From positions 62,001-126,000 of the forward strand of contig BGKB01000041.1 of assembly GCA_003116975.1 (NCBI GenBank): a stretch of 64,000 nt of DNA, in the 5' to 3' direction. How positions within the stretch are numbered: the first letter of the stretch is position 1; every line of letters starts with the position of its first letter. Below the pieces are notes generated by a model. The model was not told where the DNA came from and did not search any database. It saw only the letters and a list, made by a program, of their open reading frames with translations. A program made the translations under genes and the position numbers. This document shows, one piece after another, positions 3,001 through 52,448 of this stretch. The DNA comes from Aurantiochytrium sp. KH105 (Eukaryota; Sar; Bigyra; Thraustochytrida; Thraustochytriidae).

Positions 3001-3304
3001 GCTCGTGCTGTGTCTTGAGGCTGTCGGGCTTGTCCCACGACACCATGCCGGTCTCATGCTCAAAGTAGTACAGACTGCCATCGAGGGCGTACCGGGGCTC
3101 CCATCCTGTCTTCTGCACCGGAAAGGACTCATGGCGCGATACGCGGTGGCCTGTGAACGCATTGAAGCGCGCCGACCATTTGCTGCCGCGACGTTCGCTC
3201 AGCGCGCGTCTTTCCTGGCGCACGCTCGCGCGTTTCCGTGCCTTCGTCTCGTCGGCCCAGTACGAGCTGCGCCGCACCTCGCCGGCATTGTTCGTCGTCG
3301 CCAT
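1..3304 (-). CDS. Myosin heavy chain with N-terminal WW domain (partial, C-terminus outside window)
   Basis: Actin-based ATP-driven motor. One open frame of about 1101 codons runs from an ATG at 3304 to the left edge with no stop, so the tail is missing. Motor motifs are in order and in frame: P-loop GESGAGKT (residues 276-283), switch I NNSSRFGKW (349-357), switch II DVFGFE (611-616), then an actin-binding-side segment with RYIRCIKPND. A basic IQ-like segment beginning IQTVWRLGLG lies near residue 930. Before the motor, W68, the aromatic trio YYF (79-81), W90 and P93 form a WW domain with the normal 22-residue tryptophan spacing; WW domains bind proline-rich peptides. The start is the first ATG giving a complete WW-motor protein. 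No intron is needed, since the frame is constant from the ATG through P-loop and switch II. Heterokont myosins are known for unusual accessory domains, but the class cannot be fixed without the tail. A long frame on the opposite strand in the same register is a codon-bias shadow. Confidence 0.93.
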   Translation of the reverse strand, partial: MATTNNAGEVRRSSYWADETKARKRASVRQERRALSERRGSKWSARFNAFTGHRVSRHESFPVQKTGWEPRYALDGSLYYFEHETGMVSWDKPDSLKTQHELDEDEAEWVWVPHPKNVWQPARVKSREKSGEVVVRLFDNKTVRIPHIRVMKGKLTGGVSQKVPLWPLKRSALDRVEADLVALPALDEGMIMHNLRMRYESNDIYTWVGSSRNVLISINPFQDLFLYGEDRMKVQKQSAIAEGNGGGMAPHVFAIANDALESLLLENKSQSILVSGESGAGKTHSTKACLDYLAFVAGSDQKAASGGNGRFEMMAASSSMGADHKVEQKVLVANPVLEAFGNAKTVRNNNSSRFGKWIAVYFDRYTKLINGASITSFLLESSRVTILAEGERNYHVFYQILSDPAVRDKYMLMESPEYYRYLNQSKATTADTIDDEADYVEVVDALEELEVDEEEQEWLFRTVAAVLHLGNVEFSEIKMPDGQRGCKLVGDTGPATDHGSTTDVPESIEGSGDKGDRNLSMVGGSRPPAWIALEHAAELLEIQDAALERVLTRRSITVRGEESVIPLKVRQAVQARDSLAKAIYSRLFDWLVNRINESFGEAEGKFIGILDVFGFEIFEHNSFEQLCINFANERLQQLFNQTTFGDEEELYEVERVQFRHIDFEDNQIVLDLIDKRPDGILNLLDDECLVPGGTDERFMGRIESVHADHPRFQGLGSASSKNRAVARSKDDELAFSIKHFAGTVVYDARGFMAKNSDTLYQDLYNVCSYSEDDMTRMLFPPLDEDDRVKVISQSAKFRAQLSELMTILRKTETRYIRCIKPNDAQKPSMFEGRKCLEQLRASGVFEAVEIRKTGYPFRLFHEEFAARYRCINVGYAYSHEDPKLLCREILEASPQAFAGVQIGETRILYRVEDHKVLELLRNLALATVVPRIQTVWRLGLGRRLRRNLIKAEKGLTNAMNAEEPDLVDLETAIDDVPDILGSVGNIFRINPPSLEAARKLHAGLEQWESVEEDFETLEDIEDNTSPDFDRHTAEAYLGDADRLREEGFPMTERQKELYDHVKSLVLGKQAEDEVGELAEEALKEPTRDKVISAARESAGWT

Positions 3305-5763
3305 CTTGTCCTCGACGACGTGCTCCCGCTGCCGCTGCTGCTGCTGCTACGCCCTCGCCTGCAGGCACAGGTCCAGCGCCGTGCACCTGGTCTGCGCTCT
3401 GCCTGGGCCAGCCCGGCGCTTGCCTTCCCTTGCTTGCCTTTACTCGCTAGCTTGTGCTGCAAGCAAGCTAGCTGGACTTTCTTTCCCTTGTCTTTTCGCG
3501 GCAGGACCGGCCAGAAGGGGGCAGCCAGCCCCGTGCTGCGCTGCGCTGTGCTGCGGCTCGGCTCCGCTCGGCCTTGCGAGGGTCGCGCGGCGGTTGCAGC
3601 TGCCCGGCGCGTTGGCTTGAGTTTGGGTCGGGTTGAGTTGAGAGATGCGAAGCGGTGAGAGGAGAGGAGATGAATGAGACAAATGCAAGCAATGCACACG
3701 CGCGCGCGTGCTCGCCTCGCTGCTTCTGGCGCCGCGCTTGCTTCCGGCGGGGCCGACCGCGCGCCGAGAGGGTGTATCGCGCGCGCCGCCGTCCCGCGCG
3801 CGCGCCGCCCTCGCCTCCTGCCTCGCGCCCTCGCTCCCTCGCTCCCCCGTCGCTCCGAGCGAGCGCTTGCTCGGCGCGCGCTCCTGGTTTCGACTTTGCG
3901 CTTTTCCTTCTTTCTTCTTTCTCCTCTTTCTGCCCCCTTCGCCTTTCCGCACTTGCGCGCGCGCTATAACCCACTTGCGCCCGCCGCTTTCGCCCTTGGC
4001 GCTGGCCCGCGTCGACGCGTGCGCGCTTGCACTGCACGTGCAGCACGTGCACGCCGCAGCCGCGCCGCTCGAGCTGCTCCCGCCCCTGCGACGCCGCGCC
4101 GCTCGCACCGCCGCGCCCGCGCTGCGCCCGCCTCCCGCCGCGCCGCGCGCCGCGACACCCACCCCAGCCCTGGCCCCCAGGACCACGACCACGACCAGGA
4201 CCGGGGCGGAGGAGCGGGCGTGCAAGCAGTGCACCAGGGCGTGCACGCGTGCACAAGCAAGTGGGCGTCCCTCAACGTGCGCGAAGGTATCGATACGTTC
4301 GTCCCAGGCGCCGCGGCACGGCGAGCGGGGGAGTGGCGCGGGCGCTCTTTCTCGGCAGGCCGGCGCGCCGGCCAGCCCGCGCTCGCTCGCCCGCTTCTCG
4401 TGCCGTTTCGTGTCGTGCCGTCTCGTCCCGAGAGAGGGAGGGAGGGAGGGCTGCGAAGCGTGCGCGCGCCACTGCCAACAAGAGGAGAGGCGCGCGCCGC
4501 ACTCACCGGTCGTGATTCCGTGCTAGCTGCAGCAGCAGCGCAGTGCAAGAGAAGGTATGGATGGGGTAAGACCTAGCTAGGCCTAGCGAGATTCATCGTT
4601 GGCACTGGCCGCAGCCGCTGGCCGAGGAGCTCGGGGCCTGCAAGTGCAAGAACGCTCCCTGGAGTCTCCCTGATCGCGGCCTTGGACGATGGGAAGTGAG
4701 AACTTCGATCGCATCAGTGGGAGCTGCACTGCAGCTGCAGCTTGCCGGTGTTACTGTTAGTAGGGTGCAGTGAAGCGCATGACGCGTGGTTGGTGAAGTT
4801 GAAGTTGTGTAGCCAAGCAGCTTTATTCCGGTTGTGATGAATTTTTTGCAGTTTGGGCGAAGATGAAGGGAGGTTTGGTGGTTTGAGCAAGGCCGACAAA
4901 CCCGCCTGGGCCTAGCCAGCTAGCCTAGTGGGAATTAATTAAAATCATGTACTCTTGACCTGCAAGATGTCACGCGTAGCTTGTGGGTGAACGCATACGC
5001 AAGCCAAGAAGAGGACGCGGCAATGAATAGAAAAATATTGATGTGCCATCGTCTGGATAGTACACAATAGGCCTACTGTATCATCTCTTCAATCCAGAGA
5101 TGATCTAGCTCTCGTTCAACGTGAGCCTTTTTCGCTTGTAAAACCGCTTCGAGCTGACTGGTGGTACAAGAGACGCCAAGCCGCTCAATGGCATCAGTAC
5201 AGGGCTGGGGCGACGACGAACGCAGCAAAGCAAACAAGCAATCGTTTCAATGTGATCACGCAAAACACTGCGATGGCAACGACGTGTCGCCGGTAGGCAA
5301 ACTTTTTAGCGGACAATATTAATGTGCTACGCGTATTCAAAGGGAGGCGGTAGTACAGTCACAGTCAGTGCCACACCAAGATTGCCACCAAACACGCGCC
5401 TTTCCTTTGCTCAGCGTTTTACGATCATTGGCATTCCGTCGTCTTTGTCGAGCGAGATATCGTCTCCACCAAAAAAAATGGGCCCCTTGGACCGCGGTCA
5501 CCATGGGTCGCACACAATAGGATTTCAAATGAGTAAAAAGGCACTTACTTGGCCATTTCTCCTTCTCTACATATTTGCAGCACACGAAGGAAGCGTTGAT
5601 GAGGCTTGGCACGATTCTAGCAGTTCTCCCCTCTTTGCAGCACAAAGGAGCGAGCAGCTGGTGCTTGGACAGTTTCAGTCTGTCTGTTTGTTGCTTGCGT
5701 GAGCGTGTGTGTCACACAATAAGAGAGTTGATGATTAAAACCCACTCTCCCTCGGGTCAACAT
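3305..5763. other. Intergenic region upstream of myosin
   Basis: About 2.4 kb without a supported gene. The first 1.2 kb is extremely GC-rich, with CGCG runs, C+T-rich stretches and several overlapping Arg/Ala/Pro-rich open frames on both strands, as expected from composition alone. It includes one copy of a GCGC-ATA-CACTTGCG element (3961-3981) also found upstream of LSM6. From about 4560 the DNA is less GC-rich and contains AGGCCT-centred palindromes. It probably holds the myosin promoter and 5' UTR plus the 3' flank of the glycosyltransferase-like gene. Confidence 0.6.
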
Positions 5764-7306
5764 TTAGTTCTCCATACTCATGCGGGGGAGTTGAATTTCG
5801 AAGCCGGCGTGATTGCAAAACCTGGGAGGTCGTTGGCGATGTGACTTCTCAATACTAACGAGCTGCTTTCCATTGACGCGTTTTTTCAAGTCAGGAAGAA
5901 GGCGCTGGCCATCGGTCCGGCCTCGGCCCAAACCGGCCTCGTTAATGAGCTTGACGTATTCGTAGGCAAGAATAGCGAGCGCAGCCTGGTCTCCTCGGCT
6001 GTGCGATTCGTAAGGGCGCGCGTGAGCGTGAGCGAGTGTTGTTAGTTTTCTGTTTATTTGTTTTGCCGAGCCAACGCAACGCTTTTTTGTTGGTTCGATG
6101 CACGGAGCCTTGTGTGTCACGGCGCGAGTCTGCAAGGAAAAGGAAAGACCATTTCCCTTTTCTATGTAAGCGTATGAGGATGAGCGCAGGAAAGAGAAGG
6201 AAAAGCAAATAAGCGACGGTATAGGGAAAGGAAGCAGAATAAGATGGAGCAAGCAAGGGAGGAAGCAAGAGGAGTGAAACGTACTGACAATGACCCTCGT
6301 AGTCCATTTTGCATTCGCCAAAGCCGGTGAACCCGCTGGCTCCCTCGGGAGCCATGCATTCCTTGACGAGGGCGCAATTGGCCCAGTCCTCCATGATCTG
6401 CATGACAACCTCATTGCCTGTGTACCAAATTTGAAAAGAGGCCGCGTACGATGGTACGCCTTCGTAGTCATGCATGTTTGCCGAGACCCGTCCACGCGTG
6501 AGGCGATTGAGCATTTTAAAGGTCATGGGGTGCGTAATGACCGGGATGGTCTCCCTGAAAACGTAAAGGTAGCCCGGCCATTCGTTGGTGATTGCAAGTC
6601 CGTTGTTGAGCGCCACTGAGTCCCAAACGCGCGTCTTAGAAAAGGCGGGGCCGAAGCGCACCGACGCATCGCACCAGAACACGACCTGGCAAGGCCCAAC
6701 TTCCTTGACGACGCGATGAATGGCGGTGGGCTTCCACAGGCTGTTGGTGAGGCCAAGAATGCGATTGTAGACGGTTTCGGTGAGGTCGTGGTCCTTGAAG
6801 CCAAGCCAAGAGTAGTCGAAGGCCTGCACGGTGACTTCAATGTCGCAGGCGGCCGTCAGGTAGGTATCGATGACGTCCTGCGGAACGTCGTCGCTGAGGA
6901 GAAAAATGTGAAGATGCAGTTTGTCCTTGTGCGCTGGGCCTGGGTTCCTGCGCGAGGTCCACATGCTCTGCAGGGATCCGATCATGTCGAGCACCTCTTC
7001 GACGTGGTTAAGCGTGCATGCGGTGACGACGTGAATGCCGCCGTGCGGGTCGTAGGTGCAGGTGTTGTTTTCCGGTTCCCTCCAGTGCAAGGACGGGCCC
7101 TGCGCCGACGTGTACGAGGGCGGGGGGTTCGCTCGCAGCGTGTAGTGCGCGCTCTCCACGGGCTGCCCGATGCCATCGTCGGGGAAGTTGCAGTTCCTCA
7201 AGGGCGACGCCGGGTGCATGGCTATGAGACACAGCAAGAGAAAGGTCACGGCGCAGACCGACACGAGCAGCCTCTGGATCAGTTGCCTTTTCCTCACGAA
7301 CTTCAT
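5764..7306 (-). CDS. Type II membrane glycosyltransferase-like protein, two exons
   Basis: Predicted single-pass Golgi/ER lumenal enzyme, possibly a sugar transferase. Exon 1 is 7306-6285 and exon 2 is 5998-5764. The 286-bp intron starts GTACGT and ends CACAG. The exons total 1257 bp, giving 418 residues in frame. Without splicing, the frame runs into a low-complexity intron tail; splicing restores the run GHCHRGDQAALAI, which reads like the acceptor-side motif of lumenal transferases. A hydrophobic signal anchor lies at residues 10-30 after a basic start (MKFVRKRQ). The lumenal part has a CDASVRF motif, which could be the metal or nucleotide-sugar site (WxDxSxR type), and cysteines likely to form disulphides. 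The family is not certain; a DUF1647-like relationship is a guess. The bases of the spliced junction are visible; the enzymatic role is inferred. Confidence 0.75.
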
Positions 7307-34837: not shown

Positions 34838-35271
34838 GCATGTGAAGCAGAATTGGCGAGACCAAATTCGGCGACGGCTTCTCTGTTGAGGTCATTGACG
34901 CTTCGGAGACGTACGCGCAGCTCATGGACGAGGTTGTTCATCTCGGTAAGATCAAGAACTTTCTCAGTCGCGATGACTTTGTTCTTACCTATGACGCGAT
35001 GCACAGCGTCCCGGGACCCTTTGCGAAGCGTATCTTCCACGAGCAGCTCGGCGCGAAAATGCAGACCGAGCTCGTTGGCAAAGGAACTGCCGGTGCGACC
35101 ATGGTCAAGGCTGCCAAAGCGCGTCTCGTTCATCTTTCCGAGTCGCCTCTTAAAGGAGAATCGATGGCAGACCTCGCTACGGCTGCGAGCTCTGCAGTGG
35201 CTTGCTTTCAAGGTCCACTACTATCGCTAGACGCGATCAAAGAAGTACCTGACACTGGGGCATCAATTTGA
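34838..35271 (+). pseudogene. Phosphoglucomutase gene fragment fused to unrelated sequence
   Basis: Positions 34852-35058 translate to a near copy of residues ~172-238 of the intact phosphoglucomutase at 43210-44958. Both share the segments ETKFGD, FSVEVIDA, ETYAQLMDEV, FLSRDDFV, TYDAMH and GPFAKRIFHE; by eye about 85-90% of bases match over roughly 150 bp. The homology seems to continue a few bases upstream with one base missing, so the frame is broken there. The active-site serine and metal-binding loop are not included, so it cannot be an enzyme. After the homology the same frame stays open to 35271 with unrelated residues, making a chimeric open frame of unknown expression. It is on the opposite strand from the parent gene, about 8-10 kb away. 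Confidence 0.85.
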
Positions 35272-35597: not shown

Positions 35598-38500
35598 CTA
35601 ATCAATCCTTCTCCGCTTTCCACGTGCTCCAGCGGCCTTCTCGTTCCCCTCGTCACCAAGTTCCATTTCTGCGGAAACGACGTTTCTCTCGTTATAATCA
35701 TCAGATCTGCTCGATACACTTGTGCTCGTGACTGCCATCTCCGCCGCAACCGACGTCTTCTCAACGTCCTCCGCATCATCACCATGATCCGCTGCTTCGA
35801 GAGGCTTCGTTGCATCCTCATGCAAGCCAACGACCTGTCTGATCGACCATACAAGAGCGTCCACCTCGTTTGGCTGGCCCCCATTCAGCATTCGAACATA
35901 CAAAGGATCACCACTCCACGATATCCCAAAACGCCCCTCCCACGTGCTTCTGTTCTCCATCTCTTTTTCCAAGACACATGGAATCATACTCGCGGGCTTT
36001 ATACGCTGAAGAGCATAACAGAACTCGGCTCGACAATTGTCAAGCTCTGTCCTCCCTTTATTGACGTTACTCATGTACTTCCGGGTCACGAAGACCACAA
36101 AAGCTTTGGAACGGTCAATGCCATCCGCCATCGAATCGAGAACCTCTGTGCCAATGTCTATCTCGTCGAGCCAACAGCGGATTCCGCGACTCTCAAGAGC
36201 ATCCGCGATGTCCTTTACCATTCCATGGACCTCCTTGTTCTCACCCCAGGCATGCGACAGGAAGACGTCGAAAGGCTTGGCATCACTAGTGACGGATGAA
36301 TACAAGCCTTGTGCGGCCTCACCATCCTCTACAAATGGCGAGAACAGTGCCAAAGAAAGACGTATTCCCCTTTGCAATGAGGGAACCTCGTTGTTTGTTG
36401 CATCTGCAAATGCATCGACAGAAGCACATGCATCTTCGCTTTCGGAGCCGTCAGAGCTAAGAAAGAGTTTCGGTTCAAGATTTCCCCTCATGAAAGACGC
36501 GTCGATGCTCTCGAGACAATGCTGGAGAATCTTGACGTGACTCTTCAGAGTTTTCTTCGCGGGTTTCTTGAAGTGAAGCGTCACTCGCCTGCCACTTGTT
36601 TCCAGGATCATGTCCGTATTTTCAAAGGCAATACTCGCAAAGTCGGAGAATACGACACCATTTCTCACGCCCACGAGGCCCGGCAAACTCTGTATGAGAC
36701 TGGCAATGAAGCGTTGAAACACACCTTTGGGGAGAACCTTAAAGTCGATGTAAGCTAAAGCGCGTTGCTCACCCAGGCCACAAAGTGCCTCTGTCCTTAC
36801 GCCATTCTTCACGGGTTGCAAAAGGCTCGGTATCAGGAGTGCACCATCCTTGTCGACATCCTCGATCCAAGGACTCGGGCATGCCAACATCATTGCGTAC
36901 ATCAGCTCAACGAGGTATTCGACCGGCTGTCCTTGCCATAGCCACTCTAATAGTTGCCGACTCGCAACTCCGCGTTTTGACCAGACATCGAGCGCATCTC
37001 GTAGATTACTCGGCAGTTTTTCTTGATGCAACAGCTTCTTCTTGTGCCTTTTCATGTGGTTCAGATCGCAGATGACACGCGATAAATGTTCCAATAGCCA
37101 TTGCGGCCGAACCACGACAATCTGCTGCAGTACGTCATGTTGGCCTGTCGTCAGGTGCACAAGCACGCCGAGTTCATGCATGTATTTGAGCATCTTGGAC
37201 ACGTCTTCTTTCGAAATGCGGCACTCTGTTGTTGCCAGTCTTTCAACATCATCCAGCGACAAGTAATCCTTGTCTTGCGAGAGCAGCTTCTCCAAGCAGT
37301 AAGACCATCGTAGAGGGACCTTCTCCTTGATAAAGTCCTTCTCAGCAACCGCCTTCGAAAGCGACTCGCGAAGCAACCTGACCCGATTGCGCTTGTCATC
37401 CCGACCGGTGTTGTCGATCGGGAAAAACCAGAGCTGTGCTTCGTCATTCAGCAGCACAACGGACTTCGCGCCGCAAGGTCCCAGCACCTCCTTTTCTAAG
37501 GTGTCTTCGATCTCCTCGTGCTCCTTAGAGTCCGGTACCTGGTCAAGATATGTCCCCACAAGGGCAATATTGGCATCCGGTGCGTGTAGACAAATGGAGT
37601 CGATCCAGAAGCGAAGCGTCTCCAACGACTCCTCTTGCGAGGCGAGCTCCGCGTACTCAGTCTCGTCAAGTTTATCTTTGAAACGCTCCTTGGTCAGAAC
37701 CTCGCGCATGTCAAAAACCAGCACGTAGACGCCGTATTGCGTCAAGAACAGATGGTGTAGGGCGTAAAAGACTTCCTGCCCACCATAATCCCAGATCGTG
37801 AAGCTGATCTCCTCGTCTGGCTTGTCGGCTTGCTTCTTTATATGGAGACGAAGCGGTGTACTCACGGCTTTTTCGATTTCCTCTTTGTCAAATGATGCCA
37901 TCGATGCGCGACTCGAAGTGGACTTTCGAGAAGATTTAGGGGGTTGCATCACATCACTTGACAAATGTCGGGAGAGACCCTCGACAACGTCCTGCCGACG
38001 GTATTTGTACTTTGCGCATTGCTCGCCAAGATCAGCGTCACCAAAGTTTTGGCGCTCTTTCCAGTCGCGCGTGCGAATCAACTTGAGTTCCACACCAATT
38101 GTCGAGTCATAATCGGGACTATACGGTTGTCCTAGAAGCGTGCGAATCGTCGATGTCTTGCCTGCGGCACCTTTGCCCACAACCATGAGCTTAGCGCGAC
38201 CCCAGCGTACCTTTTCATTAGCCAATAGTGCCTTATAGGCGGCTCTGGTGAGACCCTTCAGCTCGTTCTGCACGAGCTTGACTTGAGCCTTAATACGAGC
38301 GAAGATGTCGCGGGAAATACGGCGACGAGACAGACTGGTTTGAGTTCTCGGCTCGTGAGCATTCAGTTGTCATTTTATACATCGAGTGCCAAAGTGTCCG
38401 CATCATGAAACATACCCTAGTTCTTGAAGAATTTCGTTGCTCTCCAACGCAGTTGCTAGTGCTTCGGCTCCCGGGTTCCTAATTTTGTTGCTGATTAAGC

Positions 38501-41500
38501 TGTGGATTGGCGTAGCGAAAGTCAGCGGAACGCAGGCCGTGCCATGCCAAGTCTTTCTGAGACGTACCTTAAAATTTTCAACATCGTCTTGTTATTGGCC
38601 AGAGCATCCGCCAGCGCCTTTGCGCCATCATCGCCGATTTTGTTGGAATTCAGCCTGTGTTTGTTTATCAAAGCAAACGTACATGGCGTCGACCAAGAAC
38701 GAAAATCGACAGCGTTGAGCATCCGTTGGTACGATAAGGTGATATCAACGTGCTTGCTGGTCAGTCGTTCTTGCTCCTAGCGCATAGTATTTCAATCTTC
38801 ACTTTTACTTACCTGAGCGTCTGCAAGGACAAGTTCTTCGGAAGCGCATCTGCTAGCGCCTTTGCGCCATCATCGCCGATTTCGTTAGCACCAAGGCTGC
38901 GTTCGTGCGTCATGGACAATGTCACGAACCAAAATGTGCATGGCGTGGTGAAGAAACCATTGATAGCAGCATTATGCATCCGTTTGGTGTGATAAGATCA
39001 TTGCAACGTGCTTGCTGGTTAGTCGTTCTTGCTTACTCCCTCGGAGTCCTTCTTTCGTCACTCTTACTTACATCAAACGCTGCAGCGACGAGTTATTCGC
39101 GAGCGCATCTGCTAGCGCCTTTGCGCCATCATCGCCGATTTCGTTAGCACCAAGGCTGCGTTCGTGCGTCATGAACAATGTCACGAACCAAAATGTGCAT
39201 GGCGTGGTGAAGGAACCATTGAGTGCAGCATTATGCATCCATGTGGTGTGATAAGATTATTGCATCATGCTTGCTGATCAGTTATTCTTGCCCATAGAAC
39301 ACACAGTCCTTCGTTCCTCGGTGTCACTTACTCCAGCTGCTCCAATGATGTGTTATTCGCGAGCGCATCTGCTAGCGCCTTTGCGCCATCATCGCCGATT
39401 TCATTTTCCCCAAGCCTGCGTTTGTACATCATAGAAGAATGTCGTGAACAAAAATGTGCATGGCGCGGTGTAGAAACCATTGGTAGCAGTATCATGCATC
39501 CATTTGGTGTGATAAGATCATTGCAACGTGCTTGCTGGTTAGTCGTTCTTGCTTACTCCCTCGGAGTCCTTCTTTCATCACTCTTACTTACATCAGACGC
39601 TGCAGCGACAAGTTATTCGCGAGCGCATCTGCTAGCGCCTTTGCGCCACCAGGACCGATACCATTGCCCCCAAGCCTGCGTTCGAACGTTATGGTTGATA
39701 TCATAAACCAAAATGTGCATGGCGTAATGTAGAAACCATTGATAGCAGCATTATGCATCCGTTTGGTGTGATAAGATTGTTGTAACGCGCTTGCTGGTTA
39801 GTCGTCCTTGCTTACTCCCTCGAAGTCCTTCTTTCATCACTCTCACTTACATCAGCCACTGCAGCGACGAGCTATTCGCGAACGCATCTGCTAGCGCCTT
39901 TGCGCTATCATCGCCGATTTCGTTATCTTCAAGCCTGCGTTCGTGCGTCATGTACAATGTCACGAACCAAAATGTGCATGGCGTGGTGAAGAAACCATTG
40001 ATAGCAGCATTATGCATCCGTTTGGTGTGATAAGATCATTGCAACGTGCATGCTGGTTAGTCGTTCTTGCTTACTCCCTCGGATTTCTTCTTTCATCACT
40101 CTTACTTACATCAAACGCTGCAGCGACGAGTTATTCGCGAGCGCATCTGCTAGCGCCTTTGCGCCATCATCGCCGATTTCGTTAGCACCAAGGCTGCGTT
40201 CGTGCGTCGTGAATAATGTCATGAACCAAAATGTGCATGGCGTGGTGAAGAGACCATTGATAGCAGCATTATGCATCCGTTTGGTGTGATAAGATTATTG
40301 CATCGTGCTTGCTGGTTAGTCGTTCTTGCTTACTCCCTCGGAGTCCTTCTTTCATCACTCTTACTTACTCCAGTTCCTGCAGCGACGAGTTATTCGCGAG
40401 CGCATCTGCTAGCGCCTTTGCACCATCATCGCCGATCTCGTTATCATCAAGCCTGCGTTCGTGCGTCATGGACAATGTCATGAACCATAATGTGCATGGC
40501 GTGGTGTAAGTACCATTGACAGCAGCATCATGGATCAATTTGGTGTGAAAAGATTATTACATCGTGCTTGCTGATCAGTCGTTCTTGCTCACAGCACACA
40601 AAGTCCTTCTCTCCTTACTGTCACTTACTCTAGCTGCTGCAATGACGAGTTTTTCGCGAGCGCATTTGCTAGCGCCTTTGCATCATCAACGCCGATATTA
40701 TTGTCCCCAAGCCTGCGTTTGTACATCATAGTTGAATGTCGTGAACGAAAATGTGCAGGCGTGGTGTAGAAACCATTGATAGCAGCATCATGCATTCATT
40801 TGGTGTGATAAGATTATTGCATTGTGCTTGCTGGTCAGTCGCTCTTGCTCCTTGCATATAGTCCTTCTTTCCTCATTTTCACTTACTGTAGCATCTGCAG
40901 GGACGAATTTTTCGCGAGCGCATTTGCAAGCGCCTTTGAGCCACCAGGACCGATATAATTATTCGAAAGCCTGCGTTTGTGCGTCATGGACAATGCCATG
41001 AACCAAAATGTGCATGGCGTGGTGCAAGAACCATTGATATCAGCATTATGGATCCATTTAGTGTGAAAAAAATCATTGCATCGTGCTTGCTGATCAGTCG
41101 TTCTTGCTCATAGCATACATAGTCCTTCGGTGTCACTTACTCCAGCTGCTGCAATGACGAGTTTTTCGCGAGCGCATCAGCTAGCGCCTCTGTGCCATCA
41201 TCGCCGATTTTATTGGCATTAAGGCTGCATTCGTGCGTCATGGACAATGTCATGAACCAATATGTGCATGGCGGGGTGTAAGAAAAACAGACAACAGTAT
41301 CATGTATCCGTTTCGTGTGACAAGATTGTTGCAACGTGCTTACTGGTCAGTCGTTCTTGCTCTTCGCACAAAGTCTTTCTTTCCTCACTGTCACTTACTC
41401 TAGCGTCTGCAGGGACGAGTTTTTCGCGAGCGCATCTGCTAGCGCCTTTGCGCCATCATCGCCGATTTCATTTTCCCCAAGCCTGTGTTCGTGCGTCATG

Positions 41501-42463
41501 GACAATGCCGTGAACCAAAATGTGCACGGTGTGTTGTGGTGAACCATTTGCCGTGAAAAAAGTCATTGCATCGTTCTTGCTGGTCAGTCTTTCTTGCTCT
41601 GCGCACATAGTCCTTCGTTCCTCGTTGTCACTTACTCCAGCTGCTGCAATGACGAGTTTTTCGCGAGCGCATCTGCTAGTGCCTCTGTGCCATCATCGCC
41701 GATGTTATGAGTTTTAAGGCTGCGTTCGTGCGTCATGGACAATGTCATGAACCAATATGTGCATGGCGTGGTGTAAGAAACACAGACAACAGTATTATGT
41801 ATCCGTTTCGTGTGGCAAGATTGTTGCAACGTGCTTACTGGTCAGTCGTTCTTGCTCTTCGCACATAGTCTTTCTTTCCTCACTGTCACTTACTTTAGTG
41901 TCTGCAGGGACGAGTTTTTCGCGAGCGCATCTGCTAGCGCCTTTGCGCCATCATCGCCGACCATGCAATTCTTGAATCTGAGTTTTTACATTATAGATGA
42001 ACGTCGTGAACCAAACGGTGCAGAGCGAGGTGAAAGAATTATTGATAGCAGCATTATGCATCCGTTTGGGTGTTATAAGATTATTGCATCGTGCCTGCTG
42101 GTCAGTCGTTATTGCTGATAGCACACACAGTCTTTCTCTCATCACTGTCACTTACTCTAGCGTCTGCAGTGATGACTTTTTCACGAGCGCGTCAACAAGC
42201 GTCTTTACGTCACCAAAACTGGGTATATATATACACACGTCATGGACGATAAAGTAAAAACAGAAATGGTTGTGGAGAGTCACCAAAGAAGACAAGAAAT
42301 CATAGTCAAGCATACGTTTCACGAGGATATTTTCAGCCGCATGCCAGTCAGTGCATCTCATCTCCTGCAACTGCATGTTGTCTTTGACGTACGATAGTTT
42401 CTCCGCGACCTTGCACATCAATTTGGTCGTATGGTCGAAGCTCTCCAGGTCAAAATCTTCCAT
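35598..42463 (-). CDS. LRR-ROC-COR-TIR receptor-like protein, 17 exons
   Basis: Predicted 1435 residues. Exons: 42463-42156, 41977-41894, 41719-41636, 41482-41399, 41224-41141, 40970-40887, 40712-40629, 40452-40369, 40193-40110, 39934-39851, 39675-39592, 39415-39332, 39155-39072, 38896-38813, 38654-38568, 38499-38416, 38334-35598. All introns are phase 2 and the total is 4308 bp, in frame. Exon 1 gives a ~100-residue N-terminus (MEDFDLESFDH) and a partial repeat. Exons 2-16 each give one ribonuclease-inhibitor-type LRR, consensus IGDDGAKALADALAKNSSLQ. Exon 17 gives a ROC GTPase (P-loop GKGAAGKT 577-584; STIGV; DYGGQ 706-710), a COR region and a TIR domain from ~1210 (FDVFLSHAW), where E1294 in CRAEFCYAL is the candidate NADase glutamate. 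The tail is charged (GKRRRID). There is no kinase domain. Likely a cytosolic switch protein; role in immunity or cell death is inference. Confidence 0.88.
38416..41977 (-). repeat. Tandem array of 15 LRR exon cassettes (period ~260 bp)
   Basis: Thirteen exons of 84 bp, one of 87 bp (38568-38654) and a last of 84 bp (38416-38499). Exon-to-exon spacing is 237-260 bp for the upstream thirteen, then 245 and 152 bp. The introns are also repeats: most start GTAAGTGA and end with a shared ~45-bp stretch finishing ACGCACGAACGCAG. The 84-bp exons at 39072-39155 and 40110-40193 are identical, and their 5' flanking introns are nearly so. The two-unit block at 41399-41893 matches the block at 41141-41398 and beyond with a 495-bp offset. 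This shows growth by unequal crossing-over or gene conversion of whole exon-intron cassettes. Confidence 0.95.
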
Positions 42464-46100: not shown

Positions 46101-49100
46101 ATGGCCGCCCCGAATCTGAAACATATTCCCTTGGCGGAAGGGTCCGCCAAGGTCTCGAATATGTTCCGCGCAAGAGACCGCAGCGCGCTAGTCATCGTTC
46201 ACGCGCAAGAGGACGTCGTCGCTCACGCCACCAACAGGGAGCAGGCGCTCTCCAGGCTTGACAGACTCCAGGACTCCGTCTACTTTCCCTCGACCTTTGT
46301 TGTTCTACGATGGCACCCCGCACGACACTGCTCGTTTGTGCAAAACCACCCTGGCGCGGACATCGGCGAAGTACGCTACTTGTTCGAGCTTGGCGACACG
46401 CAGCGCCTGCGCAATGAGGAGTGCGTCGCGGGCACCTTTGGAGTGACCCCCTTGCGTCTCGAGGTGTCCAACCACATTGTCTTTACCGGCACCGACCCAC
46501 GCCGCGACGCCTACTCGGCCTTCAAGGACGCTGGATCAGAAAAGCTCACATCCCTCTATAAAATACTCCACGCCAAGGCCATCGATGAGCTCTACATTTG
46601 CGGAGACTCCGACGCCGTGAGATTCACGGCCATGGACGCATGCAGCTTCCTTGACAAAGCACGCATCCACATCGTCACCGATGCCTGCGTCCAGAATGCG
46701 ACCTCTTTGAGTCGCCCAATCGGTACAGAAGACTCTCACAACTCACAGTACCACGTTCGCTATAGCCACGTTGACGACATCATCGCCTCGTTTGCGCCAC
46801 CACCTTCGCCCATGAGTTCACCCAAGCCAAGTCCTGGGGCAGCCCGAAACTTTAGTTTTGACGAGACGAGAGTGAACTCCGAGCTGTCCATTAGTCTTCT
46901 CGATGAGAGTGTTCTCATGCTTGCCGGCTCTTCGGGATCCTTGCTCACCGCAAGACGACTTGCCGAGGTGCCGGACATAAACGCCCCGTCATCTTTGTGT
47001 GGCCGCACAGTCCTCCACGCCTGCTGCTGGTCGGGCAATGTTGGAGCGATCGACACCTTGTGCGCTGCGCGACCCGAAATTGATCCAACGTGCCTTGACA
47101 ACAACGGCTTCACGCCTCTAGCCTTGGCCCTCCTATTCGCGCCGCGAGAAGCAAGAGTCGAAGTTACAAAGCGTCTCTTGGCCGTCTCTCCGAAATTGCG
47201 TGCCAAGATTCCCATGCAGCGCTTTGCGCCGCATCAGCAGACAGCACTCATGATTGCCAGCGAGAACGGCGACGCAGAAGTCGTGGATCTTCTTCTCGAG
47301 GTCGACGACTCCGAAGATCACATTCGCTGCATCGACGCCTGTGGGCGATCCGCCATCATGCTTTCCCTCTCGCAAGAAACCGAGTCTCACAATCGCGTCT
47401 CAAGGCTCTTGTTCGAAAGAATTCCGCTGCATTCGCGCATTAGTCTCCTCGAGGCCTCTGACAATGGCGGTTGGAACGCCCTCCACTATTCTGCTCGTAG
47501 TGGCGCCTTTGCCCATCTTTCCTGGCCTACTCTATTAGGCAACGCTAGTTATTTGTCTGCGTTGCCCGTGAACGCCCTCACGCAGGGCGCATTCACCTTT
47601 CTACACCTTGCAGCAGCAAACGGCAAGTTCGAGGTTATCCGTACGCTCGTGGAGCTCTCCAAGGACGGTGAACATCCATTCGATCGTTTGGCAGATATTA
47701 TCAAGGTCAATCTTACCGTGAACGCCCCGCTCGCCAGGACAGTGCGCGAGCAGCGCAAGACAGAACTCGATCTTGCGATTCAGCATGGTCATCTTGAGAC
47801 CGCGCGCATGCTCTTGCGCATCGGATGCCACGCTTCTGCAAATCGCGGCTACATGCAAGAGCTTTTGCATCGTCTCGTGCTCATGGGAGATGTCGAGGCG
47901 TGCGAAAACATCCTCGCGTTTCCGATGGAAAACGAAATTCGAATCGACCATGCTCTAGTCTCGCTCACAAAGCGCATCGAGGCTCCAGAGGTATGTACAT
48001 CTCGATGCTCCGACTTCAAGCCCGTCCTGCAGTTCGTGTATCATTGCGCCTCGTGCAATATCGACGTCTGTCTCGTGTGCAGGGAGCGCTGCCATGCGTC
48101 ATGCGCGCAGTCAATTACACCCAAGGGATTCGGCCTCGCGTTGTGCGGATGCAGCAGTCGTAACCGCTGGGCTTGCCACGCGTCTACGTCGATTGACCCG
48201 CGTGAGCGTGCTGCAATGGCGTTCGACCCGACTCCCCTCGACACAAGCATCGTCAGGCTCAGCGCTTCCACCGAGTCATTGGCCCGTCGGCTCGCACGGA
48301 ACATGCACAATGTCTGGTGCAAGATCAAGCTCGAGCAAGGCTGGCAGTACAGCCGCACTCGCGATGATGCGCGCAAGCTGCACCCGGCCTTGGTACCCTT
48401 TGAGAATCTCGCCCCAGAGGATGCAAAGTACAATACGCACATGTGCCAAGAGACGGTCAAGCTCATCATCCTCCTCGGATTCCGTCTCGAGTCGCCCTCC
48501 GAGACGCAGCTCGCCAACCAGTCCAAGACTTCGCCGTCCAATGTGCTCACCTCGCGGAGCAGGCAGGACTCGTTAAAGTATGCCGAGGAGCAATGGGACG
48601 AGTCAAAGCCGGGTTGCGCCCCCATCGACACGACAAAAGCGCCAGATACGCTTTCCAAACACCTCGAAGACCTTATTCGCTGCATCTCGGTGAACTCGCA
48701 CGAGGTTTGGGCACGCGAGAAGATCAATCAGGGGTGGCGCTACGCGCCCCAACGCAACATTGCTCGGAACCTCAAGCTCAACCCATCGCTCGTACCATAC
48801 GTCCAACTACACGAGGATGAACGCAACGCACTTCGCGAGGGCGTCGAGCAGACCATCAAATCAATCATGTCGCTCGGGTGGCACATTGAACCTCTCAGCG
48901 AGGTTGCAACTGCGAATACCCTGCGCCGAACGCAACAGCGAGCGGAGCGCGCCAGTGTCGACATGACCTGTGAGCGAATCGCATACCACAACGTCGACGA
49001 GATGCGTGTGCAACTCCTAAGCTCGTACCTCTTGGCCGCGGTGAGACGTGGACACCTTGACTCAATCAACATTATCCTCTCTCACTCCGCCCAGTACGAC

Positions 49101-52100
49101 GGCGCTGACCTCAACGCGACCGATCGCCAGGGCCGCTCTGGACTCTCCATCGCTGTGCTAGGGGGTCATTATGCCACTGCGCGTCACTTGCTGGCGCTCC
49201 ATGTGGATGCAAACGTTCAGGACCACAACGGCTTCACCGCGCTCGCATTCGCCGCCTATGTTGGCAACGTGGAGATGCTCAAGCTCCTCGTCGAGTCGGA
49301 GGTCGACGTGAATGTGCTCATACCAGACCATCTCGGTTTCACAGCTGTACACCACGCTGCGGCCAGAGGCCACTCCGATGCATGCGAGTACTTGGTGAAA
49401 CATTTGCAGCAGCTTTACCAGGCTGACGAGGTCGTCAATCTCAACCTCAACGGCGTCGCCTCTCTGGGTTTGACAAAGAAGATTTTGGAACAGTCGAGCC
49501 AAGATACGAGTGAGCCTCCTCAAGGCAGTGATGAGTCTTCCTATAAGCTTACACGCAGTTCCCAAGAATTCCTCCGCCCAATCGAGTCGCCAAATGCGCT
49601 AACTGGAACGCAAGACGGTGTCGATCCTGTCGACAAGGGCAACGATGGTGACAAGGAAGGAGACTCACCAAACAAAGCGCGACAAGGCTGGGGTGTCTTG
49701 GCGCCAAGACTTCCCAAAGCTTCGGTGTTTCCCCTGGGCCGCGGCGAGACGGATCGGCGTTTCAATGGCCCGAGGCTCTCCAAGTACTCGCCTCTCTCGC
49801 TCGCAGTTCAAAGCGGTCAACTTGGCACCGTCGAGACGCTCATCCGACTCGCCGCCAACCCGATTCTGGAAGAAGATCCAGAGCTGCATGACGTGACGTA
49901 CTCTTCCTACTACCGAGCTCTCGCTCAACATATTCGCATTGGCGACGATGTCCAGTGTGTATGCGCAGAAATTCAGGACCGGACCTTTGCCTGGACATTT
50001 CGAGCTGCAGGCCTTTCGCGGGCGTACCATCGCAAGTCCACGCGTGGTATCGAAGAGGTCGCCGCACCCAAACCCGTGGTCACGCAGCAGACGCACAGTT
50101 TCGAGCGCTGCCTTCCCGAAGTTCTGGCAGGTAAGAGCCTGCGCGAACTCCAACTCATACTCAGAGACCTCGAAGCGCGTTTTTCGGACTCGACGAGAAT
50201 GATCGACATGCTCAACCGTGCGCTTCCGGTGCGTCGCTGGCGCAACCAGCACGCCACCTGGCATTTTTTTCGCGAAACCACGGTCCTCATGGCCCTACTC
50301 ATTGTTTTTGCCATGATGGTCCCGCTCGCCCCAGACTATGACGTCGCCTCAGAGCGCGCCTGGCGCGTTAGCGTCGTCAGCGAGCTCCGCAACAGTCTCG
50401 AGAATGTCGACTCGTTTTCAAGCATGCAAGACTGGATCATCGAAGAGTTTCCAAAGATGCTGCGCTTCACAAACGAGGAAGGACTTTCAATTCTTGAGTT
50501 CAACCGTGTCATTGGTGCCATTCGCACGCAGCAAACCGTGAATTTTGTGCTGAGCAGTCACCTCTCGTGGACACAGGTTAGCAAGGTCGATATAAAGTCG
50601 ATCCCGAGCAATGTCACCTCGGCCCTCATTCCTCAGCGGCCCATCCCAGCCATGAAGCTTGCGCTCCAAGAGCACGCCCAACTCACTGACACGGATGGTC
50701 TCGAAAGTTTCGTAATGGAAATGAACGTGCACAATCCCCTGCACAACTTGCACGGCATTATCGATATCGGCATCTCCACATCGTACTTTGGTAGTTCGAC
50801 GGTGAGCGTTTCCGTCAACGAGTTTCGCATTGACTATGGTCGCTTCCCGCCGTCGCGCGCATTTCAAGTCACGCTCTTGGCCATGGTGAGCGTGTTGCTT
50901 CTACTGCTGGCGCGGTTCAAAAAGTACCGGACGCGCAAGACTCCCGCTCTGCTTGTCATTGCCGTTTGTCTGCTCATTGGAGTACTTGCCGTCGATCTCG
51001 TGGCCTTCAACAACACGCGGAATCTCAAGGAAAGCCTCGGCCGCGACGATTTTGTGTCGTGGCACCCGCATCTCAGAGTCTTGCAGATGGAGCGCAGAAC
51101 GGTGGCGGCACTCTTTTTCCTTAGCATCATTCCCTTACTTCAGTCTGCGCGAGCCATTCCCAACATCGGACCCGTGGTCGTAGCGCTGATCAATACGTTT
51201 GGAAATCTAGCTGTCCGCATCTATCTGGTCGTGGTTGCTGCGGCCTGCTTTCTGCTTAGTTTCACCTTTCACGTAGGATTTGGCAGCAGCGTGGCGGCTT
51301 GGAGCACGGTGCCAGGGACGTTTTACTCGCTCTTTTACACGCCCTTTATCGAGACTTGGGATCCGTATGACACGATTGGATCCGAGTCGTGGTCGGGCAT
51401 CATTGCCGCAGCGTGCTTCATTCTCTTTGCGACAATCAATCTGAACCTGCTCATTGCAATTGTTACCGATGTGTATCCCAAGGAACGCGAGGCGAGCGAC
51501 TCGATGTGGGAACAGCTCGTCACGGCAGGGATCGAAATGCGTCTACGTGCATACAATAAGCGCCGCTTTCATCTGCATACTGCTGAAATCTCCTATTGGG
51601 ATCCCGCAAAGATCCTCCCAGATGCAGCGCAGCGTGAATCCTCGTCTTCATCCGCATCCTCGACATCAAATGCATTTCCGGGGCAAATTGTTGGATCCGA
51701 GGACAAAACGACCTCAGAGGCGCTGAACGCGCAGTTTCAATTGAGGCAAGGTGCCATGGACGAGACGAGTGTCTCAGCGTTGTCTCCAGGAACAGCGCGC
51801 CCTCCCGTCCCCACATCAGATTCCTTTTACTCCTCCTCGACGACAACACTGCAGGCGGGTCCCACCAGTTGCGACCGTGCGTTGGAAAGACAGAGCTCAA
51901 GACTTGAAGCGCTTGAGCGCAAGCTCAATCTTGTGCTAGACCAGCTCACGCATGTTGCGCAAACACCAGGTCCTACGTCTTCATCCGAGCCTGCACAAAG
52001 TATACCAGAAGCAGCCACAAGCGTATTGCAAACAAGTCGTACACTTGCACCCAAGAGTGCACCAGCAGCAGAGCCTCCTATAGCTACGGCAGCAAAAGAT

Positions 52101-52448
52101 CGAGAAGACAAGCCTTCCGAAAGCCATTGGCCTATCTTAAACATCCCTTCCAAAGACCTCGATAGCCCAAAGCTCGCCGCCAAGACGCCTTCGCCCAAGA
52201 GCCAGCCAACGGCTCGGGCTGAAGACGATCGCTTGCGCAACCTCATCAGGGATGCATTGGCCAATGGCCCGGCAAGGCTGAGCATGATCAAGGATTCTGT
52301 TATTGATCACGGCTGGAGCTGGGATCGCGCGAGGGAATTGCGGCGCGATATGGGTGTTCTTCAGCATAAGCAAACTCTGGAAAACGGGCAGGTCGTGCGT
52401 ATGTGGGAGTACGCCGTCACCAAAGCCGCTGCTTCTCCATCGAAATAA
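46101..52448 (+). CDS. Giant channel-like fusion: pseudo-nicotinamidase, ankyrin, UBR-like finger, 2x RyR, ankyrin, polycystin/TRP-like pore
   Basis: Length 2115 residues, single exon. Residues ~28-200 have an isochorismatase/nicotinamidase fold (ALVIVHAQED; GTDPRRDAYSAF; LYICGDSDAVRFTAMDA), but all three catalytic positions are changed: Asp to H33, Lys to T129, and the nucleophilic Cys is missing after C167. Ankyrin repeats span ~300-590. A UBR-box-like zinc finger has C632, C636, C649, C652, C657, C660, C664, H665, C682 and C684. Two RyR repeats lie at ~731-797 (VWCKIKLEQGWQY) and ~851-930 (VWAREKINQGWRY). More ankyrin repeats lie at ~970-1117 and ~1227. Membrane part: TM1 ~1390; a ~180-residue extracellular loop as in polycystins/TRPML; further TMs at ~1590, ~1615, ~1672 and ~1700-1725; pore helix ~1737-1760; last TM ATINLNLLIAIVTDVY. 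C-terminus: coiled coil ~1920-1950 and a helical domain. Probably a cation channel gated through its cytosolic sensors. Confidence 0.85.
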   Translation: MAAPNLKHIPLAEGSAKVSNMFRARDRSALVIVHAQEDVVAHATNREQALSRLDRLQDSVYFPSTFVVLRWHPARHCSFVQNHPGADIGEVRYLFELGDTQRLRNEECVAGTFGVTPLRLEVSNHIVFTGTDPRRDAYSAFKDAGSEKLTSLYKILHAKAIDELYICGDSDAVRFTAMDACSFLDKARIHIVTDACVQNATSLSRPIGTEDSHNSQYHVRYSHVDDIIASFAPPPSPMSSPKPSPGAARNFSFDETRVNSELSISLLDESVLMLAGSSGSLLTARRLAEVPDINAPSSLCGRTVLHACCWSGNVGAIDTLCAARPEIDPTCLDNNGFTPLALALLFAPREARVEVTKRLLAVSPKLRAKIPMQRFAPHQQTALMIASENGDAEVVDLLLEVDDSEDHIRCIDACGRSAIMLSLSQETESHNRVSRLLFERIPLHSRISLLEASDNGGWNALHYSARSGAFAHLSWPTLLGNASYLSALPVNALTQGAFTFLHLAAANGKFEVIRTLVELSKDGEHPFDRLADIIKVNLTVNAPLARTVREQRKTELDLAIQHGHLETARMLLRIGCHASANRGYMQELLHRLVLMGDVEACENILAFPMENEIRIDHALVSLTKRIEAPEVCTSRCSDFKPVLQFVYHCASCNIDVCLVCRERCHASCAQSITPKGFGLALCGCSSRNRWACHASTSIDPRERAAMAFDPTPLDTSIVRLSASTESLARRLARNMHNVWCKIKLEQGWQYSRTRDDARKLHPALVPFENLAPEDAKYNTHMCQETVKLIILLGFRLESPSETQLANQSKTSPSNVLTSRSRQDSLKYAEEQWDESKPGCAPIDTTKAPDTLSKHLEDLIRCISVNSHEVWAREKINQGWRYAPQRNIARNLKLNPSLVPYVQLHEDERNALREGVEQTIKSIMSLGWHIEPLSEVATANTLRRTQQRAERASVDMTCERIAYHNVDEMRVQLLSSYLLAAVRRGHLDSINIILSHSAQYDGADLNATDRQGRSGLSIAVLGGHYATARHLLALHVDANVQDHNGFTALAFAAYVGNVEMLKLLVESEVDVNVLIPDHLGFTAVHHAAARGHSDACEYLVKHLQQLYQADEVVNLNLNGVASLGLTKKILEQSSQDTSEPPQGSDESSYKLTRSSQEFLRPIESPNALTGTQDGVDPVDKGNDGDKEGDSPNKARQGWGVLAPRLPKASVFPLGRGETDRRFNGPRLSKYSPLSLAVQSGQLGTVETLIRLAANPILEEDPELHDVTYSSYYRALAQHIRIGDDVQCVCAEIQDRTFAWTFRAAGLSRAYHRKSTRGIEEVAAPKPVVTQQTHSFERCLPEVLAGKSLRELQLILRDLEARFSDSTRMIDMLNRALPVRRWRNQHATWHFFRETTVLMALLIVFAMMVPLAPDYDVASERAWRVSVVSELRNSLENVDSFSSMQDWIIEEFPKMLRFTNEEGLSILEFNRVIGAIRTQQTVNFVLSSHLSWTQVSKVDIKSIPSNVTSALIPQRPIPAMKLALQEHAQLTDTDGLESFVMEMNVHNPLHNLHGIIDIGISTSYFGSSTVSVSVNEFRIDYGRFPPSRAFQVTLLAMVSVLLLLLARFKKYRTRKTPALLVIAVCLLIGVLAVDLVAFNNTRNLKESLGRDDFVSWHPHLRVLQMERRTVAALFFLSIIPLLQSARAIPNIGPVVVALINTFGNLAVRIYLVVVAAACFLLSFTFHVGFGSSVAAWSTVPGTFYSLFYTPFIETWDPYDTIGSESWSGIIAAACFILFATINLNLLIAIVTDVYPKEREASDSMWEQLVTAGIEMRLRAYNKRRFHLHTAEISYWDPAKILPDAAQRESSSSSASSTSNAFPGQIVGSEDKTTSEALNAQFQLRQGAMDETSVSALSPGTARPPVPTSDSFYSSSTTTLQAGPTSCDRALERQSSRLEALERKLNLVLDQLTHVAQTPGPTSSSEPAQSIPEAATSVLQTSRTLAPKSAPAAEPPIATAAKDREDKPSESHWPILNIPSKDLDSPKLAAKTPSPKSQPTARAEDDRLRNLIRDALANGPARLSMIKDSVIDHGWSWDRARELRRDMGVLQHKQTLENGQVVRMWEYAVTKAAASPSK

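Follow-up and report, generated by a model that had tools for sequence, protein, structure and literature searches.

The usual order of domains in a ROCO protein is leucine-rich repeats (LRRs), then ROC, then COR (PMC11378527). In bacteria, LRR-AP-GTPase(ROC)-COR proteins carry at least 24 different C-terminal domains, TIR among them, and are predicted to be counter-invader systems (PMC8195603). In brown algae, each repeat of the LRR-ROCO proteins is encoded by a single phase-2 exon of 72 bp, these exons are shuffled, positively selected sites lie on the concave face of the repeats and the proteins are candidate immune receptors; two further brown-algal groups (3 and 4) end in a peptidase or DUF900 and show no exon shuffling (PMC11378527). 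Brown algae hold 9-47 ROCO genes per species, many of them suspected pseudogenes, and the other SAR species examined hold no more than four (PMC11378527). A TPR-ROCO-TIR protein is one of five ROCO proteins of Chondrus crispus (PMC11378527), and the TLR-like and MyD88-like TIR proteins of Aplysia contain ROC-COR, with LRRs in the TLR-like ones (PMC9334734). Here we analyse a 64,000-nucleotide stretch of the genome of the thraustochytrid Aurantiochytrium sp. KH105 (contig BGKB01000041.1, positions 62001-126000, or C41:62001-126000 in the contig numbering used below; hereafter the window) and describe within it an LRR-ROC-COR-TIR gene from a large family of receptor-like ROCO proteins that is diversifying rapidly. 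Each element has a precedent, whilst the combination and its scale are new. We favour, with a probability of roughly 60%, the reading that these genes form an NLR-like repertoire built on ROC-COR, in which receptor-like ROCO proteins would have a TIR NADase output of immune type.

The gene lies on the minus strand and runs from an ATG at 42463 to a stop codon at 35598 (window positions, as for all features below) as one spliced open frame. The best model has 18 exons and 1377 residues, with phase 2 at every junction. A Pfam scan of this model identified LRR_6 (1e-70), Roc (4e-17), COR-A (6e-13) and TIR_2 (2e-18), in the order LRR-ROC-COR-A-TIR on one chain. The 11 Pfam families matched by the full model at E <= 0.001 include no kinase and neither NB-ARC nor NACHT; the switch is ROC. 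A sequence-only reading of this stretch had proposed a single chain with phase-2 junctions across 35598-42463, comprising an LRR sensor, a ROC GTPase, a COR region and a C-terminal TIR domain without a kinase, and had suggested a profile search with LRR, Roc, COR and TIR models as a check. All four models matched (LRR_6, Roc, COR-A and TIR_2), and the coordinates and the domain content were borne out. Two of its wider statements did not stand. A kinase, which it had considered a classical Roco feature, is not the rule among ROCO proteins (PMC11378527). Moreover, the architecture is not undescribed, because there are precedents in bacteria (PMC8195603), Chondrus (PMC11378527) and Aplysia (PMC9334734).

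The ROC GTPase region spans approximately 37317-38204 (residues ~510-805 of the model) and scores 63-65 bits, against a Pfam cut-off of 27. It contains the motifs GKGAAGKT (residue 519) and DYGGQ (648), both named in the sequence-only reading, together with GTYLDQ (726), and each of nine GTPase motif residues (Walker A, switch and G4-type) is kept in 22/22 aligned proteins. Among solved structures, the family profile matches chains of LRRK1 and LRRK2 (including ROC chains of LRRK2) as well as 3dpu and 6hlu; the structure listing names 3dpu, 6hlu and 8r4b as Rab family protein, which we take to be the Chlorobium Roco protein. COR-A follows directly (36819-37316, residues 806-971) at 49-50 bits, above its cut-off of 35.3. 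The LRR-ROC-COR core is shared with LRRK1 and LRRK2, but TIR stands here in place of the kinase.

The LRRs are of the RI type, with a 28-residue repeat and one repeat per symmetrical phase-2 exon. Exon 1 (42393-42463, 71 nt) provides the start codon and a short N-terminal segment and ends at a GTACGT donor. It is followed by 16 LRR exons of 63 nt, 13 x 84 nt, 87 nt and 84 nt, all 16 of which have AG before, GT after and a phase-2 end. The first of these, exon 2 (42156-42218), carries a partial LRR and has GTAAGT as its donor. The 13 cassettes of 84 nt occupy 38813-41977 (41977-41894, 41719-41636, 41482-41399, 41224-41141, 40970-40887, 40712-40629, 40452-40369, 40193-40110, 39934-39851, 39675-39592, 39415-39332, 39155-39072 and 38896-38813), with mutually alignable introns and a main tandem period of 259 bp. 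The penultimate repeat is encoded by an 87-nt exon (38568-38654), a form also present in other family loci, and the last LRR exon (38416-38499, 84 nt) has the donor GTATGT. The last exon (35598-38334, 2737 nt) encodes a linker, ROC, COR, TIR, a tail and the stop, and lies inside a 923-codon stop-to-stop frame. Because the LRR exons are symmetrical, the number of cassettes can change without a frame shift. As in the brown-algal LRR-ROCO genes, the order is LRR-ROC-COR with one LRR per phase-2 exon; unlike there, the exons measure 84 or 87 nt rather than 72 bp, and a TIR domain is present, for which the available brown-algal text has no report.

The family was assessed across the assembly (76 Mb, 367 contigs), in which many matches are paired on different contigs. 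Both haplotypes appear to be present in the assembly, and numbers per haploid genome would therefore be about half of those given here. A search with the ROC-COR-TIR protein yielded 60 segments (49 of 247 candidates were scored). COR-A has 124 matches, 116 above the curated cut-off and 8 below. By coordinates, TIR_2 lies downstream on the same strand for at least 91 of the 124, the TIR and Roc counts being lower bounds. At least 58 of the 124 are preceded by a WD40 propeller homologous to the one in a copy on C60, at least 56 of these with TIR, where WD40 matches entered the count only down to C101:17708. A further 41 of the 124 are in neither the LRR nor the WD40 class among the matches listed. 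In 25/25 close-family loci, the window included, one-repeat-per-exon LRR arrays stand directly upstream of the ROC exon, and 21 of these loci have the 87-nt LRR exon. Five of the 25 have no TIR among the matches listed, and all five align over the TIR region. The whole assembly contains 2 matches to NB-ARC and 17 to NACHT. The copy on C60 (C60:4000-8500), the sole copy scanned in full, encodes WD40-ROC-COR-TIR in one long frame.

The family resembles the bacterial LRR-AP-GTPase-COR proteins in domain order, in fast-evolving LRRs and in the use of TIR as an effector (PMC8195603). Unlike the bacterial proteins, the genes here show cassette-exon diversification, and TIR accompanies at least 91 of the 124 COR-A matches rather than being one of at least 24 alternatives. 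Chondrus crispus shares the eukaryotic union of ROC-COR and TIR, but with TPR where LRR stands here. In Aplysia there is only a handful of proteins, with extra accessory domains, and the available text describes neither expansion nor cassette exons (PMC9334734). With the TIR-NLRs of plants and the bacterial TIR-NB-ARC-TPR proteins the gene has in common a repeat sensor, a nucleotide switch and a TIR output; unlike in those, the switch is ROC-COR, in an assembly where NB-ARC is nearly absent. The literature searched, mostly without subscription papers, yielded no description of a protist family with LRR- or WD40-ROC-COR-TIR architecture.

Other TIR genes were also observed. TIR domains without COR-A occur in frames of 1406-1905 codons at C24:13190, C51:47683, C9:55203, C21:1034177, C68:8065, C185:19561 and C40:131819, and frames of matching length on the same contigs carry WD40 repeats; these seven loci are perhaps a further TIR-x-WD40 family. 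Moreover, an ankyrin-TIR protein is encoded at C36:461611-464991, and a 633-residue protein at C8:193482-196823 matches Pfam only through its C-terminal TIR.

Change within the LRR exons is concentrated on the concave face. Together the two haplotypes contain 28 LRR exons, of which 21 entered the sample (20 unique ones in the five-position count of nonsynonymous divergence, dN). For five concave positions, which were derived from the LRR consensus and fixed ahead of the variability profile, dN is 0.74 vs 0.09 elsewhere, with introns at 0.19. Four codons picked from the variability profile (2, 3, 5 and 26) have a dN of 1.13 vs 0.09 elsewhere, with an intron distance of 0.21. Outside the hypervariable codons the ratio of nonsynonymous to synonymous divergence (dN/dS) is 0.27 (bootstrap 0.21-0.32); as the LRR units are related, all bootstrap ranges are a guide only. 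Taken together, these distances suggest, but do not prove, diversifying selection at the concave LRR codons.

A second copy, on C16, allows the two haplotypes to be compared, since it adjoins the C16 copy of the neighbouring phosphoglucomutase (PGM) gene. The PGM copies are 97.9% identical in nucleotides and the last exons of the receptor 90.2%; dN and dS are 0.068 and 0.204 for the last exon (dN/dS 0.34) vs 0.005 and 0.076 for PGM. There are 16 LRR exons in the window copy and 12 in the C16 copy. The outermost LRR exons compared do pair across the haplotypes (84-92%), whilst the inner ones mostly have no one-to-one partner and some are 89-95% identical to one or two exons, in a comparison that excluded one C16 LRR exon and both exons 2. 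By dS, the window copy is no closer to the copy on C16 than to the one on C21 (0.204 and 0.187), and a tree groups the C16 copy with C21/C5 at a support of 91/89, under the starred level. Exchange between loci is a likely cause of this pattern. Megablast identified no near-identical blocks in the LRR array (>=95%) or across the haplotypes (>=93%), although this is a weak test. In both haplotypes, about 200 bp of the PGM gene (92% identical to it) is duplicated past the 3′ end of the receptor, at 34852-35053 in the window.

Alternatively, the protein could be a receptor for self and non-self rather than for pathogens, with allelic variants that kill cells when these fuse or touch. Some fungal NLRs act in allorecognition. 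By analogy, a haplotype divergence far stronger than in the PGM neighbour, a syntenic allele no closer than the gene of another locus (although the tree grouping is not starred) and the large WD40 sister family would all be consistent with such a role. However, pathogen-driven selection predicts the same pattern, and we regard allorecognition as rather unlikely.

TIR_2 matches 35865-36278 at 68 bits (cut-off 28) and includes FDVFLSHAW, and by this profile a TIR fold is present. The glutamate that the sequence-only reading had put forward as catalytic lies in NCRAEFCYAL, at residue 782 when counted in the 923-codon frame and at 1236 in the 1377-residue model. It is invariant in 22/22 aligned proteins, is kept in 11/11 members of a TIR set that includes three non-ROCO TIRs of the same genome (two of them near-identical), and aligns with a glutamate of three acidobacterial TIRs. 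A low-confidence structure model places it in helix 81-97, preceded by predicted strand 3 and a short helix; a glutamate in an alpha-C-type helix is the catalytic position of TIR NADases. PADLOC profiles PDC-S66 (2e-10) and ThsB (3e-9) also match the domain, and its nearest solved TIR chains are bacterial (7uxr, 3h16, 8g83 and 7uwg; E 0.0007-0.004 in one search), 8g83 bearing the name NAD(+) hydrolase AbTIR. The fold matches of the model include prolyl-tRNA synthetase and flavodoxin-like proteins, which we take to reflect an alpha/beta arrangement shared with a weak model. We predict that the TIR domain is probably an NAD-cutting enzyme. Beyond it, the tail (35598-35865) is variable and ends in RGKRRRID/LD in 4/11 aligned members; by eye, this end looks like a nuclear localisation signal.

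Alternatively, the protein could be a signalling ROCO whose TIR acts in oligomerisation or as an adaptor, with LRR variation tracking partner proteins. Some TIR domains do serve as scaffolds, the tryptophan of the plant-type WCxxE context is missing at the glutamate site (NCRAEF here), and a dN/dS of 0.34 in the last exon is ordinary constraint. Conservation of the glutamate throughout both alignments, non-ROCO TIRs included, and a solved relative named as an NAD hydrolase nevertheless make a non-enzymatic TIR unlikely.

A number of results weigh against the reading of an NLR-like, TIR-NADase repertoire. Both codon sets were fixed once the exon peptides had already been seen. The dN of the four codons is 5.4 times the intron distance (bootstrap 4.1-7.5) but 3.5 times the divergence of synonymous sites elsewhere in the exons (2.9-4.1); because these synonymous sites lie 1.6-fold above introns, the excess is 3.5-fold rather than 5.4-fold. 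Moreover, dS at the variable codons is itself high (1.08 for the concave set and 1.53 for the four codons) and within them dN/dS therefore stays under 1 (0.69 and 0.74, respectively). An in-frame stop is present in 7 of the 60 paralog segments, and thus some members may be in decay. A candidate COR-B (residues 541-628 of the 923-codon frame) reaches 17.7 bits, under its cut-off of 27. The TIR structure model is weak (pLDDT, the predicted local distance difference test, is 61) and its Foldseek/VIA matches mix TIR with other alpha/beta folds, whilst the glutamate alone does not establish TIR activity.

That the gene is real was confirmed by comparison of genomic loci. We searched 1.75 kb on the 5′ side of the 25 loci for LRR exons, allowing any length of 60-130 nt. 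This gave 135 exon starts, of which 133 have a donor, at lengths of 84 nt (111), 87 nt (20) and 75 nt (2); none of the 133 is out of frame, and the other two starts lack any donor form sought. Introns in the LRR array (n=18) range from 153 to 177 nt. Since exon lengths hold the frame whilst introns vary, and dN/dS is 0.27 outside the hypervariable codons, the exon structure is more than chance. The GTACGT donor of exon 1 (window 42393) is aligned in 5/5 family members, in each of which exon 1 ends in phase 2, and the frame read past exon 1 meets a stop before exon 2 in 4/4 relatives. On the strength of this shared donor and these stops, we reject a reading of exon 1 straight into exon 2. The 17 exons and 1435 residues of the sequence-only reading could be reproduced as a frame, but they fuse exons 1 and 2, and the 58 residues beyond 1377 are probably intron for the same two reasons. 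At the last exon, an acceptor AG is aligned in 9/9 loci, and its window position, 38334, is most likely the exon start; given this alignment, a variant of 1381 residues with an earlier acceptor is less likely.

These splice data also bear on whether the family is a non-functional repeat expansion or a set of pseudogenes. The stops in seven paralog segments and the many pseudogenes suspected among brown-algal ROCO genes (PMC11378527) point that way, but the window copy is intact, the frame is kept in 133/133 LRR exons with a donor, and dN/dS is low both outside the hypervariable codons and in the last exon, making such decay very improbable as a general explanation. Least probable of all, to the point of being negligible, is that modelling fused two adjacent genes, LRR and ROC-COR-TIR: the joined model comes from genomic sequence, yet LRR exons directly precede the ROC exon in 25/25 loci, the last LRR donor and the ROC-exon acceptor align over nine loci, and LRR-ROC-COR is the common ROCO order (PMC11378527).

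We also sought relatives outside this genome. With the ROC-COR-TIR profile, 184 GTDB and 32 viral stretches contained the short patterns and none was confirmed, although distant relatives may escape such a search. With the TIR profile, 3 of 371 stretches from GTDB contigs were recovered, all acidobacterial and with TIR and TPR above cut-off; two of the three have NB-ARC at 21.0 bits, under the cut-off of 23.5. The same profile gave 0/115 in viral contigs, where the pattern search may miss distant relatives. A plasmid search returned 11 records, five cyanobacterial ones that match the ROC-COR part and six that match nothing but the TIR part, and none of the 11 covered 80% of the query. On the Acaryochloris plasmid NZ_CP071723.1, genes for LRR, ROC-COR and DUF4062 are consecutive on one strand (3061-5852), the DUF4062 match being 22.5 bits, under its cut-off of 24.7. 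DUF4062 has been described as a family of TIR-like NADases (PMC13174449), and the gene content of this row makes it a possible bacterial counterpart in split form, with such an NADase.

Elsewhere in the window, a frame of 2115 residues on the plus strand (46101-52448) contains RyR domains, ankyrin repeats and an ion-transport match; by this content it would be a relative of ryanodine-receptor-like channels.

In summary, we hypothesise that the protein, which is probably intracellular, acts like a TIR-NLR with ROC-COR replacing NB-ARC/NACHT. A ligand or altered self would bind the variable concave face of the LRRs, and binding would shift the nucleotide state of ROC together with a COR-dependent dimer or oligomer. 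TIR domains brought together in this way would cleave NAD+ or make a signal of the cyclic ADP-ribose type, and the product would lead to cell death or alarm; both the NADase activity and the immune role are inferred. LRR cassette exons that are duplicated, lost or exchanged would generate the diversity, with alternative splicing as a possible further source. More tentatively, a eukaryote almost without NB-ARC may possess a repertoire equivalent to NLRs but driven by a GTPase, in which one ROC-COR-TIR core serves both LRR-cassette and WD40 sensors and the cassettes recombine among alleles and paralogs and may also be mixed by splicing, such that variants would come from the germ line and from single cells.

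If true, a eukaryote would have put together the sensor-switch-TIR logic of NLR immunity with ROC-COR as the switch, and cassette-exon diversification of LRRs, known in brown algae, would extend to another class of repeat and to a TIR output. With an intact gene, a rearranged allele and many paralogs, this locus offers a compact test system for the gating of a TIR enzyme by ROC-COR. Such gating bears on the mechanism of ROCO proteins generally, LRRK2 included.

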